Assembly: GCA_027620015.1 (NCBI GenBank)
Contig: JAQCGH010000014.1
Span: forward strand, 1 to 46,447
Direction of reading: 5' to 3'
DNA from: Cyanobacteriota bacterium
GTDB taxonomy: Bacteria; Cyanobacteriota; Cyanobacteriia; PCC-6307; Cyanobiaceae
Length of the DNA stretch: 46,447 nt
The notes under the pieces are model-generated. The model saw nothing but the letters and a program-made list of their open reading frames with translations, was not told the DNA's origin and searched no databases. Position 1 is the stretch's first letter, and every line of letters starts with the position of its first letter. Shown here piece by piece: positions 19,857-26,631 of this stretch. The position numbers were made by a program, and so were the translations under genes.

Positions 19857-20201
19857 ATGAAGCTCTACAGCTATCCCCGCTGCAGTACCTGCCGAAAGGC
19901 AATCGCCTGGCTGACAGCCCGCAACCTAGTTGCCGAAACGCTGGACATCACTGAACAGCCTCCAAGCATCGCCGAACTTGAGCAGGCCATGGCTCAAATG
20001 GGGCGTCAACGTTTGTTCAACACAAGCGGACAGAGTTATCGGGCTTTGGGAGCTGCATCTGTGCAGGCCATGGACGACCAAACAGCCCTAGCAGCTCTAG
20101 CAACAGACGGCAAATTGATCAAGCGGCCCTTTCTGATCACCGATGACGGGCGCATTCTCACTGGCTTTAAGGAGCCAGAGTGGCTGGATCTTTTGGGCTA
20201 G
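19857..20201 (+). CDS. ArsC/Spx-like thioredoxin-fold protein
   Basis: A 114-residue protein of the arsenate reductase/YffB/Spx family. The N-terminal YPRCSTCRKAIAWL carries a CXXC pair (Cys9, Cys12) like Spx and YffB, and KLIKRPFLI holds the family's basic anion-binding Arg before the cis-Pro. Whether it reduces arsenate, as ArsC does with glutaredoxin, or is a redox sensor cannot be told; no other arsenic gene is nearby. The preceding ferredoxin suggests a redox role. Its end overlaps the convergent membrane-protein gene by 35 bases. Confidence 0.88.
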   Translation: MKLYSYPRCSTCRKAIAWLTARNLVAETLDITEQPPSIAELEQAMAQMGRQRLFNTSGQSYRALGAASVQAMDDQTALAALATDGKLIKRPFLITDDGRILTGFKEPEWLDLLG

Positions 20202-21708
20202 CGGGGCTAGGGGCAGTCATCAACTGGTCGAGCTCCTGGATCAGGGCTTCAATCCCGGCCCTGTTGATCTGGCTTAGATAAGTGCCCTTGGCGCCGTCTA
20301 TGAGGGCGCAAAGCAGTTCCTGGGAGCGCTCTAAGGCCGAGCCGCTCTCGAGTGCCGCGGCCAGCTCCTCCCAAAATCGGTCGATGAACCCCTGCAGTAA
20401 TTCGAGTTGCACGTCATCGCGGCGAGAAAGCTGGTTGCCAGTGCTGCGGGAAAGCTCCAACAAGCTTTCAACCATGCCGCTTGCTAATTGGCGAGTGATT
20501 CCGGTCTCGACCTGGAGCAGCTGCTGCAACTGGCGCAACGGTGCTGGCACCACGGTGCGCTCGAGACTCTGACGCAGGCTGTACCCCAGCAAACCCTGCA
20601 GCTCCGGCGCAAGCTTCGGTGCCACCTGGCTCAGCAGCAGCGGCGCCCAGATCCTTACAAGCTCTACCAGCTCCCGCTCATTGCTGCTACTTGCCACGCT
20701 CTGATGGCTGCGCAAGGCTCGCAGACGCTGTGGCCAGCGCCGCGATCGAATTAAACCCTGGGTGCCATCGAGGATCTGCAGCGACAGCACCTCAAATAGC
20801 TCAACCGCAAGCAACGCCACCACACCCCGGCTCACAACGGCCCGCAGCGGCTCAAAATTGATTAGGCCGGAAGTCTGAAGGCGTTCAAGCACCGGTACTA
20901 GTCGCAACCAGCGCCAAAAGGGCAGCAGCAGTGATAGATCGCTCCAGCGGCGCAACAGTGCATCACCCCAGCTGAGCCCAGGTAGACGGCGCCGCAACCG
21001 GATCAGCCGCAAGAAAATGTCTAGAGCAAAGACGCTCTGAAATAGCAGCAGGTCGATGCGCCAAAAGTGGTCTGTGGGTCGGCCGTTTTCATCAATCGAG
21101 CGCCAGTAGTTGGTAGCCACCAGCGGGAGCACCTGGTCGTTCCAGAAGCGCCTCTCCTGGTTCCAGCCCCTAGTACGAATACGCTCTGGACTCAGCAACA
21201 GGCTGGAGGCCTGTCGAGCGGAATCCCGGTCCGCTCGCTGCCGCAAGAGATTTTTGATCTTCTCTACGGTTCCCGAGGCCTCAGAAGCCATGAAGGGATT
21301 GCTATCGATCAGCTGGACCGTGAGTTGGGCCTGACGATTCAGCTGGGCTAACTGGCTGGGCTGAAGTTCCTGACCGGTCGGCACGGTCAATAGGACTTTA
21401 TCGAGTTGGCGAAATTGCTCTAGGTAGGCCTGGGTCTCCCGGCGGGGCTCAATGCCCTTGATCGGATCCACATGAGGGGTGATATCCGGGATAACGGTGA
21501 AGGGCACCACTAGGGGCACCGAAGGGATCGGGTAGAGGTTGCGCTGCAGCCAAAAGGTGCGCAATGGCACGTAGGTGATGTCGAAGGCCACCCACAGCAA
21601 ATTGAAGCTGGCCCAACCCGCCACAAAGCGGTCCCAACGCAGCATCCAGCGGCCCACTGGCTCAGTCGATTTCAACTTGGTGCGGTCTTGCCATCGAGGG
21701 GACGCCAT
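20167..21708 (-). CDS. Uncharacterised cyanobacterial membrane protein (513 aa)
   Basis: I do not recognise a named family. Residues 25-48 form a first membrane helix, followed by a long polar part (about 55-215) rich in Gln, Arg and Glu. Residues 215-300 hold two to three hydrophobic segments with charged spacing: FALDIFLRLIRLRRR, WSDLSLLLPF and WRWLRLVPVLERL, which resemble S2-S4 of a voltage-sensor domain; another helix (VVALLAVELFEVLSLQIL) follows. The C-terminal 200 residues are soluble and helical (LGYSLRQSLERTVVP, ELLQGFIDRFWEELAA). No pore or selectivity filter is visible. It is divergent from lepB. Confidence 0.8.
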   Translation of the reverse strand: MASPRWQDRTKLKSTEPVGRWMLRWDRFVAGWASFNLLWVAFDITYVPLRTFWLQRNLYPIPSVPLVVPFTVIPDITPHVDPIKGIEPRRETQAYLEQFRQLDKVLLTVPTGQELQPSQLAQLNRQAQLTVQLIDSNPFMASEASGTVEKIKNLLRQRADRDSARQASSLLLSPERIRTRGWNQERRFWNDQVLPLVATNYWRSIDENGRPTDHFWRIDLLLFQSVFALDIFLRLIRLRRRLPGLSWGDALLRRWSDLSLLLPFWRWLRLVPVLERLQTSGLINFEPLRAVVSRGVVALLAVELFEVLSLQILDGTQGLIRSRRWPQRLRALRSHQSVASSSNERELVELVRIWAPLLLSQVAPKLAPELQGLLGYSLRQSLERTVVPAPLRQLQQLLQVETGITRQLASGMVESLLELSRSTGNQLSRRDDVQLELLQGFIDRFWEELAAALESGSALERSQELLCALIDGAKGTYLSQINRAGIEALIQELDQLMTAPSPASPKDPATLAP

Positions 21709-21783: not shown

Positions 21784-22551
21784 TTGAGCCCTTCCAACAA
21801 TCCAGAGAGTGGTCAGGTTGTTAATCAAGAGGACGGCAGTCGTTCCCCCTCCCTGATCCAGCCCGAACATGCACCCCAAGACGGCCCCTGGGCCTTCTGG
21901 CGCAGTGTGTTGGTCACATTGGCGGTGGCCTTAGGTATTCGCCAGTTTCTGGTGGAAGCTCGCTACATCCCCTCTGGTTCAATGCTGCCAGGGCTGCAGC
22001 TTCAGGATCGGTTGTTGGTGGAAAAGCTCAGCTACCGCAAGCGCGCGCCGCGACGCGGCGAAATCGTCGTGTTTCATTCGCCCCACCGCTTTGACCCCGT
22101 GCTGTCTGCAGGATCAAACCGCAATCCTCTGAGTTGCTTACTGGTGAATCTGCCGCTCCTGGGAAGCCTGCCCGGGTTTGGCAATCCTGCCTGCGACGCT
22201 TACATCAAGAGAGTTGTCGCCCTTCCCGGTGAGCGGGTTGTAGTGGATCCAAGAGGTCATGTGTTTATAGATGGCCAGCGTCTGGCAGAGCCCTATGTCC
22301 AGGGCGATTGCCCGGTAGATAGTCAGGGTATGGGTCCATGCCGAACCTTGAACGCCGTCGTTCCAGCAAGCCACGTGCTCACCCTGGGCGATAACCGTGC
22401 CAACAGCTGGGATGGACGCTTCTGGCCTGGGGGTGCGTTCCTACCCGAAAGAGAAATCATTGGTCGGGCCTTCTGGCGCTTTTACCCCTTCAACCAAACG
22501 GGTGCTCTGGGAGTCACAAGCTCCAGCGATCTACCGGCTGCAGACCGGTAG
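21784..22551 (+). CDS. lepB: Signal peptidase I
   Basis: Cleaves signal peptides from exported proteins at the outer face of the membrane. One N-terminal membrane helix (about 35-58) is followed by the catalytic serine box YIPSGSMLPGLQ, the general-base lysine in AYIKRVVALPGE, and the box GDNRANSWDGRFWP. A loop of about 45 residues between the serine and lysine boxes (with two cysteines) is longer than the minimum. The TTG start is supported by AAAGGAG 10 bases upstream. The end overlaps the convergent dihydroorotase-like gene by 38 bases. Confidence 0.95.
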   Translation: MSPSNNPESGQVVNQEDGSRSPSLIQPEHAPQDGPWAFWRSVLVTLAVALGIRQFLVEARYIPSGSMLPGLQLQDRLLVEKLSYRKRAPRRGEIVVFHSPHRFDPVLSAGSNRNPLSCLLVNLPLLGSLPGFGNPACDAYIKRVVALPGERVVVDPRGHVFIDGQRLAEPYVQGDCPVDSQGMGPCRTLNAVVPASHVLTLGDNRANSWDGRFWPGGAFLPEREIIGRAFWRFYPFNQTGALGVTSSSDLPAADR

Positions 22552-23794
22552 CCCGCACTGCCCCGCATAGGGACTGGCCCCAGCGAGGCTGATTAGCTGC
22601 CAGTGAAAAGGAGTCACCTCGCTCCCAATTCCAGGGGTGGTGGGGATCGAACAACAGCCAGCGGCGAGTTCCGTGGCTTAACTGCTCAGGGGGCAGCCCC
22701 AGCAACTTAGAGCCACCCCAGCTCAGGGCCTGCCAGAGCAACTCCACGCTCCAGCCACGGCGCTGCACCAACTCCTGCCACAACAGCGGCAACACCAGTC
22801 CATAGCGGGAGCCATGACCAGCCACTCCAGCCCGCCGCTGATCTAGTGGGAGAAGCTGCTCTTCCGCATCAAGAGGCAGATGGTGTACGGCCACGGCGGT
22901 AATTAGCCGCTGCTCTAAGCCAGCGATCAAGCCCAGGCGGTCAGCTGGAGTTCCAAGGCTGGGCCGCAGCCGCCAGCCCTCCTCAGTGGGGTGGAGATTG
23001 CCGCTGTCAGCTAGCAGGTGCCACCAGCTAACGCTGGCCAGGGGCCGCTTCGGGGCCTGGGCCAATAGCTCCACCCCTGCAGCTGTTGATAAGTTCATCA
23101 GCCGCAGCGCCGCCGAGGAACGAGCCTGAGCCAGGCTGAGCAGGCTTTGCAGCGGCAGGGTTTCGCTGGTCTCGGGATCAAGAAGCCAGCCCGCCCTCAA
23201 AGCATTAACCCCCTCGCGCACGAAGCCACCGCCGCTAATGCCGGCATCGCGCGGGGCCACCAACACGGGCCGGCTGCCCATCTCCCCGAGCAGCAGGCCC
23301 CGCTCCAGCAAAGCCAATGGTGGCTGCTGATCAGCGCAGGCCAAACCAATTGCGCCGGCGGAGATTTGATCAGCATGGGGGGCCAGCTCCTGATCGGCAC
23401 CCTCCAGGCTGAAACTGCCCCAAAGAAGTAGTTTCATCGGCTCAGCCCACACCAGGCCAAACCGCTCCGGTCGATCGCGCCACGGAGTAGCCCAGGGCAG
23501 CAGGGCCACAGTGCCGTAGCCCCCAGCAGCAGCGGCTGCGGCCAGGCTGGCAAGATCTTCTGCTCGTCCGCCGAAGGGTTGCTCCAGCACGCTGTGGGGG
23601 TCAACCAGAGGCGGGGCAAGCAACCAAGAACGGGCGTCGGTAGGGCTGAGGCCAAGGGTCTCGGCCCGCTGACTGGCGCCATCTCCCCAGATGAGCAGCT
23701 CCCCACCACGGTCGATCAGCGCATCGGCGCTAACAATCGGCTGCCCAGGTCCTGCGAGCAGCTGAACCTGGTTAAGCCAGAGGGGGAGAGTCAA
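22514..23794 (-). CDS. Dihydroorotase-like amidohydrolase-fold protein, probably inactive
   Basis: The overall pattern is that of PyrC: LLAPPLVDPHSVLEQP, then EDLASLAAAAAAGGYGTVALLPWATP, LMNLSTAAGVELL, and a C-terminal HHPW region. The metal ligands are largely gone. The DxHxH pair reads D-P-H-S-V, no carbamylated-lysine segment is seen (GAIGLACADQ), the HAED block is replaced by APRDAGI, the later His motif reads LMNLSTAAG, and the ATDHAPH block reads AVHHLPLD. It is therefore unlikely to make dihydroorotate; a structural or regulatory role is possible. The TTG start lies 3 bases after the stop of the histidine phosphatase, so they form an operon. Confidence 0.85.
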   Translation of the reverse strand: MTLPLWLNQVQLLAGPGQPIVSADALIDRGGELLIWGDGASQRAETLGLSPTDARSWLLAPPLVDPHSVLEQPFGGRAEDLASLAAAAAAGGYGTVALLPWATPWRDRPERFGLVWAEPMKLLLWGSFSLEGADQELAPHADQISAGAIGLACADQQPPLALLERGLLLGEMGSRPVLVAPRDAGISGGGFVREGVNALRAGWLLDPETSETLPLQSLLSLAQARSSAALRLMNLSTAAGVELLAQAPKRPLASVSWWHLLADSGNLHPTEEGWRLRPSLGTPADRLGLIAGLEQRLITAVAVHHLPLDAEEQLLPLDQRRAGVAGHGSRYGLVLPLLWQELVQRRGWSVELLWQALSWGGSKLLGLPPEQLSHGTRRWLLFDPHHPWNWERGDSFSLAANQPRWGQSLCGAVRATGLQPVDRWSL

Positions 23795-23797
23795 AAT

Positions 23798-25150
23798 TCA
23801 AAGTGCACCGGCGGCTGTGCGATCCAACACACCTCCAAGATGCAGGGTGAGGTTCATGGCGGCCACAACAGGTCGGCCAGCTGGGCCATCGGGGTAATCA
23901 ATCACTGTGACAGCGCCATTGCCCTGCTTGATAGTCCAGATGTCGGCGGGTTGCAGGCCCAGCAGCCCGCACAAGATGGTCTTGTTGACGGCGTCATGGG
24001 CCACCACAAGGGCAGTTTCATCATTCTGGAGGTTGGCGGCGATGCGAGCCCAGGTCGTTAAAGAACGGTCCCAAACCTCCTGGAGAGTCTCCCCTTCAGG
24101 CATCTGAACGGTGTGGGGCGCCCGCTTCCAATCGGCCAGAAGCTGGGGCCAACCTGCGGAGATCTCCTGTTCCAATCGACCCTCCCAGAGGCCGTGGCCG
24201 ATCTCCACCAAGCCGGTGCTGCTGGTGAGGGGAACACCAAGATGGCTAGAGAGGATTGCCTCAGCCGTCTGGCGCGGTCTGGCCATGCAGCTGGTGTAGG
24301 CGCGATCGATGCTCACCGATGCAAGAAACCTGCCAGCGGCTTCGGCCTGGGAGCGCCCGTTGGCATTGAGGGGAATGTCGATCTGGCCCTGAAAACGACC
24401 TTCTCGGTTCCAGTCAGTTTCCCCGTGACGCACCAACAGTAGTCGGGCACCTGAGCTTTTAAGGGGCAGGGGCTCCCCAAGGTGGGCTACCCCATTAAGC
24501 GACTCCACCTGGACGCTGCCCTTGCTGAGATTGAGCACTGAGATTGAGCAGTTGTCGACCTGCAGCCGGCGAAAGCCACTAGGAGGCAGCTCCAGCAGGG
24601 CTAGTAATAGGCAGCGCAGGATGGCGTTATGGGCCACCACGAGCACGGTCTGGGGAATGGCCTGATCATCATCCAGGGCCGCAGTGTGACGATCAAATAG
24701 CAAATTACGGAACAGCTGGGCCTGAGCCATCAGCTCCTGCAAAGGCAAGTAAGCGCTGCCATCGGGGCGCTGCAGCTCAAGCAACTCCGGGGCCTGGCGC
24801 CATTGACGCTCCTGTTCGGGATAGCGCTCCCGCAACTCCTTTCGCAGCAGCCCGCTCCAGGGGGCCAGATCAATTTCCAGGAGTTCTTCCGCCTGTTCGG
24901 CAACCAGGCCCTGGCCATGCTCGGCCAGGAGCAGTCGGGCGGTTTCAGCGGCCCGCTGCAAAGGGGAGCAGTAGGCGGCGGCGCAGGTCAAATCACGCAG
25001 GGCCACTCCTGTGGCACAGGACTGGTTCTGGCCTATTTCCGTGAGGCTCGATAGGTCGTCGCGGCCCTGGATCCGATGCTCCACATTGAAGCTGCTAAGC
25101 CCGTGGCGCACCAACACAATCCGAAGGGGCACGGGCTCATCGCTACTCAA
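23798..25150 (-). CDS. Double-domain histidine phosphatase (phosphoglycerate-mutase family)
   Basis: Two complete histidine-phosphatase domains in one chain of 450 residues. The first has LVRHGLSSFNVEHRIQGR (residues 13-30) and VVAHNAILRCLL; the second has LVRHGETDWNREGRFQG (about 230-246) and LVVAHDAVNKTIL. Both keep the phospho-accepting RHG and the second catalytic His, so both may be active. The substrate is unknown; relatives act as phosphoserine or sugar phosphatases as often as true mutases. A TTG start (25150) is assumed; a GTG at 25132 is an alternative. It precedes the dihydroorotase-like gene and is divergent from the CPBP protease. Confidence 0.92.
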   Translation of the reverse strand: MSSDEPVPLRIVLVRHGLSSFNVEHRIQGRDDLSSLTEIGQNQSCATGVALRDLTCAAAYCSPLQRAAETARLLLAEHGQGLVAEQAEELLEIDLAPWSGLLRKELRERYPEQERQWRQAPELLELQRPDGSAYLPLQELMAQAQLFRNLLFDRHTAALDDDQAIPQTVLVVAHNAILRCLLLALLELPPSGFRRLQVDNCSISVLNLSKGSVQVESLNGVAHLGEPLPLKSSGARLLLVRHGETDWNREGRFQGQIDIPLNANGRSQAEAAGRFLASVSIDRAYTSCMARPRQTAEAILSSHLGVPLTSSTGLVEIGHGLWEGRLEQEISAGWPQLLADWKRAPHTVQMPEGETLQEVWDRSLTTWARIAANLQNDETALVVAHDAVNKTILCGLLGLQPADIWTIKQGNGAVTVIDYPDGPAGRPVVAAMNLTLHLGGVLDRTAAGAL

Positions 25151-25215
25151 ATTCCATCGTATGGGAGGGGTGCGGGCCAGAATCCCGAAACCAGTGCGCC
25201 CTGGAGGGCCTGCGT

Positions 25216-26631
25216 TTGAACGCCAGTCCCCCCCCGCAACCCCGCCAGAGCGCTGGATGGATCACCGGACTTGCCCTGCTGAGCCTTGTGCTCAGTGGCC
25301 TGCTTTGGATCACTGGCTTAGTGGCCAGCCTGCAACGCCCATCTGTGGGTAATTCCCTGGAGCTGCGCCAACTGGAGCTGACGGCCCTGGCAGCACCAGC
25401 ACTGCCAGCTGGCCTCCGCCAAGCTCTCACCGGCTCCCAACCCCTCGAAGCCCTGCGCCTTGGTCTTCAGAAACAGTTAGACGGAAATTCCGTTCCGCCA
25501 GCACCGCAGCAAGACCTGCAGCTCGCCTTACTGAATCTTCAGGCGGGTCAGGGGAGCGCAGCTCGCCAGCGGCTGCAAGAACTCAATGAGCAGGTACCAC
25601 CTGAACAGCGTGAGCTACTCAAGGCCCTGCTCGAACCATTGTCCAAACCAGCCACCCACGCATCGGAGCAAGCGGCACTGCAGCAACTACTTAAGAGCTG
25701 GGGCCTGTCTCCTCTAAGCAACCAACTGGCGTGCCAAGCCCTAAGCGAGCCCCAAGCCGCTTGTGAAGATCGCGGAGCCCAGCAGACAGCAGTGCTTCGC
25801 CTGCTGGGCTCCGCGGTATTGCCGGTGCTTCTGCTGCTTCTGGGCTCCTCTCTACTACTGCGTGAACTATGGCTGCGCTGGCGCGGCAAGGCAGCTCCGA
25901 CCGCCCCACTAGTAGGGCCGACCCTCACCCTGGCGGAGGTAACGCTGCTGATCGCTGGCGGGTTTGTGGTGCTGGGCGAGCTGGTGATGCCCCTTGTGCT
26001 GGCTCCGTTGCTGCAGGGGCTACTTAAACCGTTGTCCAGCCAGCCGGCCCTGCAGCAGGGATTGCTGGTATTGGGGCTTTACAGCGGCCTGATGGCAGCG
26101 CCACTGATCTTGTTGTGGAGTCAGCTGAGATCCCTTGGAACTAGGCCCCAGGGGGGCTGGTTGCAGTGGCGCTGGCGGCCGCTGGCTAGCGCGCTGCGCC
26201 AAGCTTTGCTGCAGGTGTTGCTGGTGTTGCCGGTTGTGGCCCTTGTGGGATGGCTGCTGGAGCGTTTAGTTGGCGATCCCGGCGGTAGCAATCCCCTGCT
26301 TGAGCTCGTGCTGAACAGCGCCAATCCCCTCGCCCTGCTTTGCTTCGCCATCACGGCATTGGTGTTGGCACCCTTATTTGAGGAAACCCTGTTCCGGGGG
26401 GTACTACTGCCGGTGCTGGCCCAGCGCTGGGGGGGTATGGCGGCAGTGGTGGTGAGCGCCCTGCTCTTCGGCATCGCCCACCTCAGTCTGGGGGAACTGC
26501 CGCCTTTATTCGTGTTGGGGCTAGGGCTGGGCTGGCTCCGGCTGCAGAGCGGCCGGCTCGGGCCCAGCGTGCTGATGCACAGCATCTGGAATGGCCTCAC
26601 CTTTGCCAATTTGTTGTTACTTGCTGGCTAA
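25216..26631 (+). CDS. CPBP-family intramembrane glutamic protease
   Basis: A membrane protein of 471 residues. The C-terminal third has the three CPBP (Rce1/CAAX) motifs: EETLFRG with the catalytic Glu pair, FGIAHL, and HSIWNG. About eight membrane helices are visible (one at 15-38, the rest from about 195 on). Residues 40-185 are a soluble helical part rich in Gln and Leu, an unusual N-terminal addition that would face one side of the membrane. The TTG start has GGAGGG seven bases upstream. The natural substrate is unknown. The bitopic protein gene follows after 33 bases. Confidence 0.92.
   Translation: MNASPPPQPRQSAGWITGLALLSLVLSGLLWITGLVASLQRPSVGNSLELRQLELTALAAPALPAGLRQALTGSQPLEALRLGLQKQLDGNSVPPAPQQDLQLALLNLQAGQGSAARQRLQELNEQVPPEQRELLKALLEPLSKPATHASEQAALQQLLKSWGLSPLSNQLACQALSEPQAACEDRGAQQTAVLRLLGSAVLPVLLLLLGSSLLLRELWLRWRGKAAPTAPLVGPTLTLAEVTLLIAGGFVVLGELVMPLVLAPLLQGLLKPLSSQPALQQGLLVLGLYSGLMAAPLILLWSQLRSLGTRPQGGWLQWRWRPLASALRQALLQVLLVLPVVALVGWLLERLVGDPGGSNPLLELVLNSANPLALLCFAITALVLAPLFEETLFRGVLLPVLAQRWGGMAAVVVSALLFGIAHLSLGELPPLFVLGLGLGWLRLQSGRLGPSVLMHSIWNGLTFANLLLLAG

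Follow-up and report, generated by a model that had tools for sequence, protein, structure and literature searches.

The locus described here raises the question of what a dihydroorotase (DHOase) homologue that appears to have lost its catalytic residues is kept for, and which protein, if any, it acts on. The gene lies at positions 22514-23794 on the minus strand of the stretch of DNA analysed (46,447 nt, hereafter the window, to whose positions coordinates refer unless a locus is named), from a Cyanobium/Synechococcus-like genome of 1.83 Mb in 80 contigs. It encodes a 426 amino acid protein with a TTG start, given the working name pDHO, and the open reading frame, profile and structure-database searches, and a residue table point to a non-catalytic type-I DHOase homologue. 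Directly upstream on the same strand is the gene for a two-domain histidine phosphatase with two His_Phos_1 stretches (PHOS, 450 amino acids; 23798-25150), presumed to be the first gene of a two-gene unit, with 3 bases between its stop codon and the TTG start of pDHO. The convergent lepB gene (signal peptidase I; 21784-22551, plus strand) shares 38 bases with the 3′ end of pDHO and is presumed to lie outside the mechanism.

The first-pass annotation held that the PyrC scaffold is kept and quoted two motifs, both of which are present (DPHSVLEQP, residues 65-73, and EDLASLAAAAAAGG, residues 79-92). Homology to type-I DHOases was found with NF005614/PRK07369 (E 2e-76, 257.5 bits, below the curated cut-off of 456) and TIGR00857 (E 5e-36, 124.5 bits, below the curated cut-off of 279), and among solved DHOases with 2z00 (E 5e-17) and 3d6n (E 8e-13), the Thermus enzyme being nearest; a Pfam-A search with the window protein returned zero families at E 0.1. 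An AlphaFold2 model built on the window protein and two relatives had a mean pLDDT of 32.7 and was discarded. Named relatives with 89-90% identity are found in Synechococcus sp. CS-1330 and Cyanobium usitatum; the same frame is present in other Cyanobium/Synechococcus genomes, and a sequencing artefact was dropped as an explanation.

Catalytic positions were compared in 54 copies, comprising the window copy, 17 further members of its family (f1) and 36 copies that represent 35 other cyanobacterial families, and were numbered after Aquifex aeolicus DHO by alignment to 3d6n and the accessible text of PMC3880350. In the window protein the former HxH metal site (Aquifex H61 and H63) reads H67, S68, V69 (23588-23596), C153-A154 stands where Aquifex has D153 (23333-23338), A180 at H180 (23255-23257), N234 at H232 (23093-23095) and H304 at D305 (22883-22885), all on the minus strand, and R65, N95 and H309 are replaced by E71, W101 and L308, respectively. 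The alpha-site metal ligands H61, H63, D153 and D305 are thus represented by H, V, C (or A) and H, which is not the ligand set of a catalytic type-I enzyme. Among the 18 f1 copies, H61 is present in 18, N95 in two and D153 in five (the alignment being loose at D153), position 232 is Asn in all 18, and H63, R65, H180, D305 and H309 are found in none. Outside f1, Tyr at position 61 and Arg at position 232 each occur in 35 of 36 copies, D305 in 35, D153 in 32, H63 in 20, N95 in six, H309 in two, and R65 and H180 in none. The statement of the first-pass annotation that the HxH pair is lost is hence correct for the second histidine (V69) and incorrect for the first (H67 stays); its wider statement that the metal ligands are lost applies within f1, H67 excepted, and does not extend to the other families, where D153, D305 and, in 20 copies, H63 are kept.

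Three of the Aquifex residues, R65, H180 and H232, are absent from 54/54 copies, and H309 is absent from 52/54; R65 and H309 presumably function in substrate binding. According to the accessible part of PMC3880350, Aquifex DHO with H180, H232 or both changed to alanine remains active, so the loss of these two residues alone does not prove inactivity, and neither do absent ligands alone, since a PyrC paralogue without zinc residues is reported to show DHOase activity in another system (PMC2770081, as far as its text is accessible). A stronger case is made by the further losses, which concern H61 outside f1 and H63, D153 and D305 within it, taken together with R65 and H309, and on this residue pattern pDHO is predicted to be inactive as a DHOase.

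A conventional enzyme is encoded elsewhere in the same genome. The first-pass annotation regarded pDHO as a pseudoenzyme and named the lack of any second dihydroorotase as part of what would speak against it; its view is supported by a PyrC of the E. coli type, encoded on a different contig in a frame that contains DDWHVHLRDG and scoring 440.9 bits with TIGR00856 (cut-off 292.95). The source genome has one PyrB (290.6 bits), and no PyrI match was found in it. A panel of 72 chosen genomes from 51 genera was then assembled, of which 36 belong to f1 (including listed genomes without pDHO) and 36 to 35 other families. PyrB scored above cut-off in 72/72 and E. coli-type PyrC in 47/72 (36/36 in f1, 11/36 elsewhere). 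The second conventional type, PRK07575, was searched for in 37 of the 72 genomes (the 36 outside f1, and the source genome as the sole f1 member) and scored above cut-off in 24/36 outside f1. There the two types are mutually exclusive, the PRK07575 type being carried by 24 genomes and the E. coli type by 11, with no genome having the two together and one (G342) having neither above cut-off, such that one or the other is present in 71/72 panel genomes and in 53/54 genomes with pDHO, the exception, G342, being a 170-contig draft. With a separate PyrC/PRK07575-type DHOase found, pDHO as sole DHOase was dropped. These conventional enzymes belong to the same superfamily and occur in the same genomes as pDHO, but pass the cut-offs of conventional DHOase models, whereas the window protein falls below those of NF005614 and TIGR00857.

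In 5/36 loci outside f1, drawn from four families (L037, L038, L040, L052 and L059), pDHO has an intact PRK07575-type pyrC in its vicinity; four of the five read PHOS - pDHO - LepB - pyrC. In two further loci (L035:3894-4220 and L036:3581-4216, minus strand), the slot after LepB holds PRK07575-type pyrC fragments with stops, pDHO is open, and the genomes carry an E. coli-type PyrC instead of the PRK07575 type; we read this as a catalyst that was apparently displaced, with the pseudo-copy left in place. As a separate observation, the PRK07575-type DHOases at L037:2211-3650, L038:1716-3074 and L040:2724-4073 have Gln for the first His of HxH and His at the D153 column, so their metal site appears to be unusual too.

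The gene is no local oddity, as a PRK07369 match is present in 54/72 panel genomes and 51/51 genera, scoring above the model's cut-off in 36/36 genomes outside f1 and below it in the 18 f1 copies. A wider scan with the window protein, from whose genomes the panel was drawn, matched 359/388 genomes, although the weaker matches may include other amidohydrolases; its listing of genomes without a match leaves out nine. Fifty-three other pDHO loci (36 outside f1, 17 within) were read over up to 11 kb around the gene, six of them shortened by contig ends, and a single uninterrupted pDHO frame was present in each. Five comparisons within the window's genus put dN/dS at 0.146-0.157 for pDHO and at 0.113-0.137 for PHOS; two pairs of them have identical values and probably involve the same genomes twice, leaving three independent ones. 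Against two more distant relatives the values were 0.22 and 0.145-0.176, respectively. The gene is under purifying selection in this genus, and with a dN/dS of about 0.15 a recent pseudogene was dropped as an explanation. Absence of pDHO was seen in 17 of the 18 panel genomes of genus g2 and in G355 of genus g4, while G160 (g2) and G041 (g4) keep it; since both genera contain keepers and losers, it was lost at least twice. The g2 genomes measure 1.6-1.7 Mb and, judging from this size and from their kinship, are probably Prochlorococcus-like. In eight loser loci the genes for PHOS, LepB, CPBP and a penicillin-binding protein (PBP) are still in order, the gap between the PHOS and LepB frames being 56-61 bases in seven g2 genomes and 154 bases in G355. 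PyrB is kept in all 18 panel genomes without pDHO.

From this pattern we infer that pDHO works by binding another protein. Catalysis would be left to a different PyrC, which can be exchanged, and cyanobacteria would retain pDHO as a scaffold. Our first choice of partner, a possible one, is aspartate transcarbamoylase (ATCase); the first-pass annotation, too, had pointed to inactive DHOase domains as structural partners of that enzyme. In the fullest form of this reading, to which we give about an even chance, pDHO is a scaffold of the pDHO/PyrX/PyrC′ kind with PyrB as its likeliest partner; it would join PyrB as in the class A ATCase dodecamers and act as a stabilising or regulating subunit that is not obligatory, because Prochlorococcus-like genomes have dropped pDHO and kept PyrB. 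The structure 3d6n, a DHO-ATC complex, is the nearest solved relative both of a pDHO copy from outside f1 (Aquifex DHO chain, E 2.5e-63) and of the source-genome PyrB (ATC chain, E 1.6e-46), which we count in favour of PyrB together with the absence of a PyrI match and the precedent in Pseudomonas and Sinorhizobium. Counted against it are the B. subtilis ATCase, a plain trimer that is nearly as close to the source-genome PyrB as Aquifex ATC (159 versus 162 bits), a profile from 19 pDHO copies that favours Bacillus DHO (241.9 bits) over Aquifex (237.8 bits), and the Thermus enzyme as nearest relative of the window copy. PRK07627, a family that we take to include Pseudomonas PyrC′, ranks third among NCBIfam models for all three pDHO copies from outside f1 that were scanned.

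In P. aeruginosa the ATCase chain forms no active trimer without pDHO (PMC7053772), and in Sinorhizobium the PyrX gene adjoins pyrB and its disruption leads to pyrimidine auxotrophy (PMC5929573), both according to the accessible parts of these papers. The class A2 proteins pDHO, PyrX and PyrC′ are likewise full-length type-I homologues without catalytic residues, accompanied by a separate active PyrC (PMC7053772, PMC5929573 and PMC2770081, in their accessible text), and by analogy we think that the cyanobacterial protein may work like such a pseudo-subunit. However, its gene lies away from pyrB, often beside a phosphatase gene, with no pyrB match in 53/53 loci read (up to 11 kb around pDHO), so that the adjacency usual, though perhaps not defining, for PyrX is absent; moreover, some genomes have PyrB and do without it. 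The active DHOase in the dodecameric DHO-ATC complex of Aquifex aeolicus (3d6n) has the same length and domain layout as pDHO, which differs from it in the uniform absence of R65, H180 and H232, the replacement of H61 in 35/36 copies outside f1, and the loss of H63 and D305 within f1. Fungal CAD-like proteins also retain an inactive DHOase domain (PMC7053772 and PMC4581275, in the text accessible), but there it shares one chain with CPSase and ATCase, whereas pDHO is a free-standing gene. No paper on a cyanobacterial pDHO was found in the open literature among the matches listed (titles and starts of abstracts), a scope that leaves subscription journals largely outside. We do not file pDHO as a dihydroorotase, because the defining residues are absent; nor, with the gene unlinked to pyrB and a complex with PyrB hypothetical, do we count it among the subunits of class A2 ATCases.

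The probability given to PyrB as partner is no higher because the genes are unlinked, no surplus of PyrB changes follows the loss of pDHO, and rate covariation is flat. An imprint of loss was sought at the PyrB positions that do not vary among 16 other keepers of f1 (n = 141), using seven of the 17 g2 losers. Changes were found at 17/141 positions in the g2 losers and at 17/141 in the keeper G160, five being private to each; the corresponding private changes were 2 and 2 for PHOS (of 151 positions), 2 and 1 for CPBP, 4 and 3 for PBP, and 0 and 1 for LepB, and the PROS row of this comparison covers 18 taxa, many loci cutting the PROS gene. No PyrB change at keeper-conserved positions was common to both losing lineages. 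PyrB R61 is Lys in 17/17 g2 losers and Arg in 54/54 keepers, and PyrB is 92% identical between G041, a keeper, and its sister genome G355, a loser. Across 18 f1 genomes, the rate of pDHO correlated with that of PyrB at +0.05, PHOS at +0.29 (p 0.10), CPBP at +0.24, PBP at +0.17 and LepB at -0.02, none with p < 0.05, and a 37-genome covariation of three genes, each pair against the third, gave +0.37 to +0.48 for all pairs and does not discriminate between them.

PHOS thus has the highest of the five correlations, and by gene order alone the phosphatase is the second candidate partner. The operon with a phosphatase proposed by the first-pass annotation, which suggested that its conservation be checked, turns out to be an old linkage. 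Outside f1, PHOS lies directly upstream of pDHO on the same strand in 19/36 loci (35 families), the frames often overlapping or nearly touching, and in one further locus it lies 1.27 kb away; within f1 a script rule places it upstream in 16/17 other loci and inspection by eye in all 17, the discrepant locus having an over-long open frame. A consensus scan of 22300-25500 found no promoter-like site on the pDHO strand, which fits a two-gene unit and proves nothing. On these grounds pDHO could be a partner or regulator of the phosphatase, co-made and co-acting with it, its link to pyrimidine synthesis being mere ancestry. We regard this as unlikely: 16/36 loci outside f1 have no phosphatase in the stretch read, PHOS is full-length in 18/18 pDHO losers (and in 44/44 cyanobacterial genomes searched), and it has no excess of private changes in them. 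Moreover, convergent LepB directly downstream (9/36 loci) and CPBP within the locus (12/36) are also old neighbours outside f1 though not co-transcribed, and adjacency may be inherited order. PHOS itself scores 210.7 against the alpha-ribazole phosphatase model (cut-off 162.9), a PDB search gave phosphoserine and ribazole phosphatases, and its C-terminal half is nearest in the PDB to phosphoserine phosphatase 1. It may be the counterpart of plant CA1P phosphatase. A cyanobacterial gene goes unmentioned in the accessible part of PMC10212915. Also in the neighbourhood, a 513 amino acid protein encoded at 20167-21708 (minus strand) matches nothing in Pfam-A or NCBIfam at E 0.1, and its relatives adjoin lepB in most f1 loci read.

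A further reading, which we consider unlikely, is that the pocket is still in use, at least outside f1, as a sensor of a small molecule such as a pyrimidine precursor or for some other chemistry. The pocket strands are the best conserved stretches outside f1 (0.87-0.89, the mean column identity being 0.615), and D153, D305, Tyr61 and Arg232 are kept there at the high counts given above. Positions 61 and 232 (pDHO residues 67 and 234; 23594-23596 and 23093-23095) are Tyr/Arg in 34/36 copies outside f1 and His/Asn in 18/18 within it, an exchange that may have been one single event. However, f1 copies persist despite the loss of D305 and H63 in 18/18, the pocket strands double as the core of the barrel, such that structure alone could explain their conservation, and no ligand is known. 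It is doubtful that this former DHOase is a ligand-sensing subunit, non-catalytic or differently catalytic, whose strongly constrained pocket, with Tyr/Arg (His/Asn in f1) for two metal histidines, couples pyrimidine precursors to ATCase or to the adjacent phosphatase.

It is very improbable that pDHO functions as a dihydroorotase by means of an unusual site. The NCBIfam model named dihydroorotase covers 36/54 copies above its cut-off, G342 has no other DHOase above cut-off, and the active Aquifex mutants and the zinc-less PyrC paralogue cited above would allow for activity without some of the usual residues; set against this are the conventional DHOase in the other 53 genomes, the draft state of G342, and the absence of R65 throughout and of H309 in nearly all copies, to which the window copy adds the loss of H63, D153 and D305. 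Least credible of all is a decaying, functionless remnant, for although f1 copies are more degenerate than those elsewhere and some lineages have lost the gene, the low dN/dS, the frame open in every locus read and the presence in every panel genus argue against it.

The extra DHOase copy of cyanobacteria is therefore probably a helper subunit of another protein, with PyrB the likeliest partner. What a reference model calls a dihydroorotase across most of the phylum is very probably not one, and metabolic reconstructions may pick the wrong gene. If the partner is the phosphatase, pDHO would represent a new use of the DHOase fold. If it is an ATCase subunit, the class A2 architecture would extend to cyanobacteria, with a pseudo-subunit that is dispensable, and the Prochlorococcus-like losers beside keepers would be a natural experiment on the role of such a subunit.
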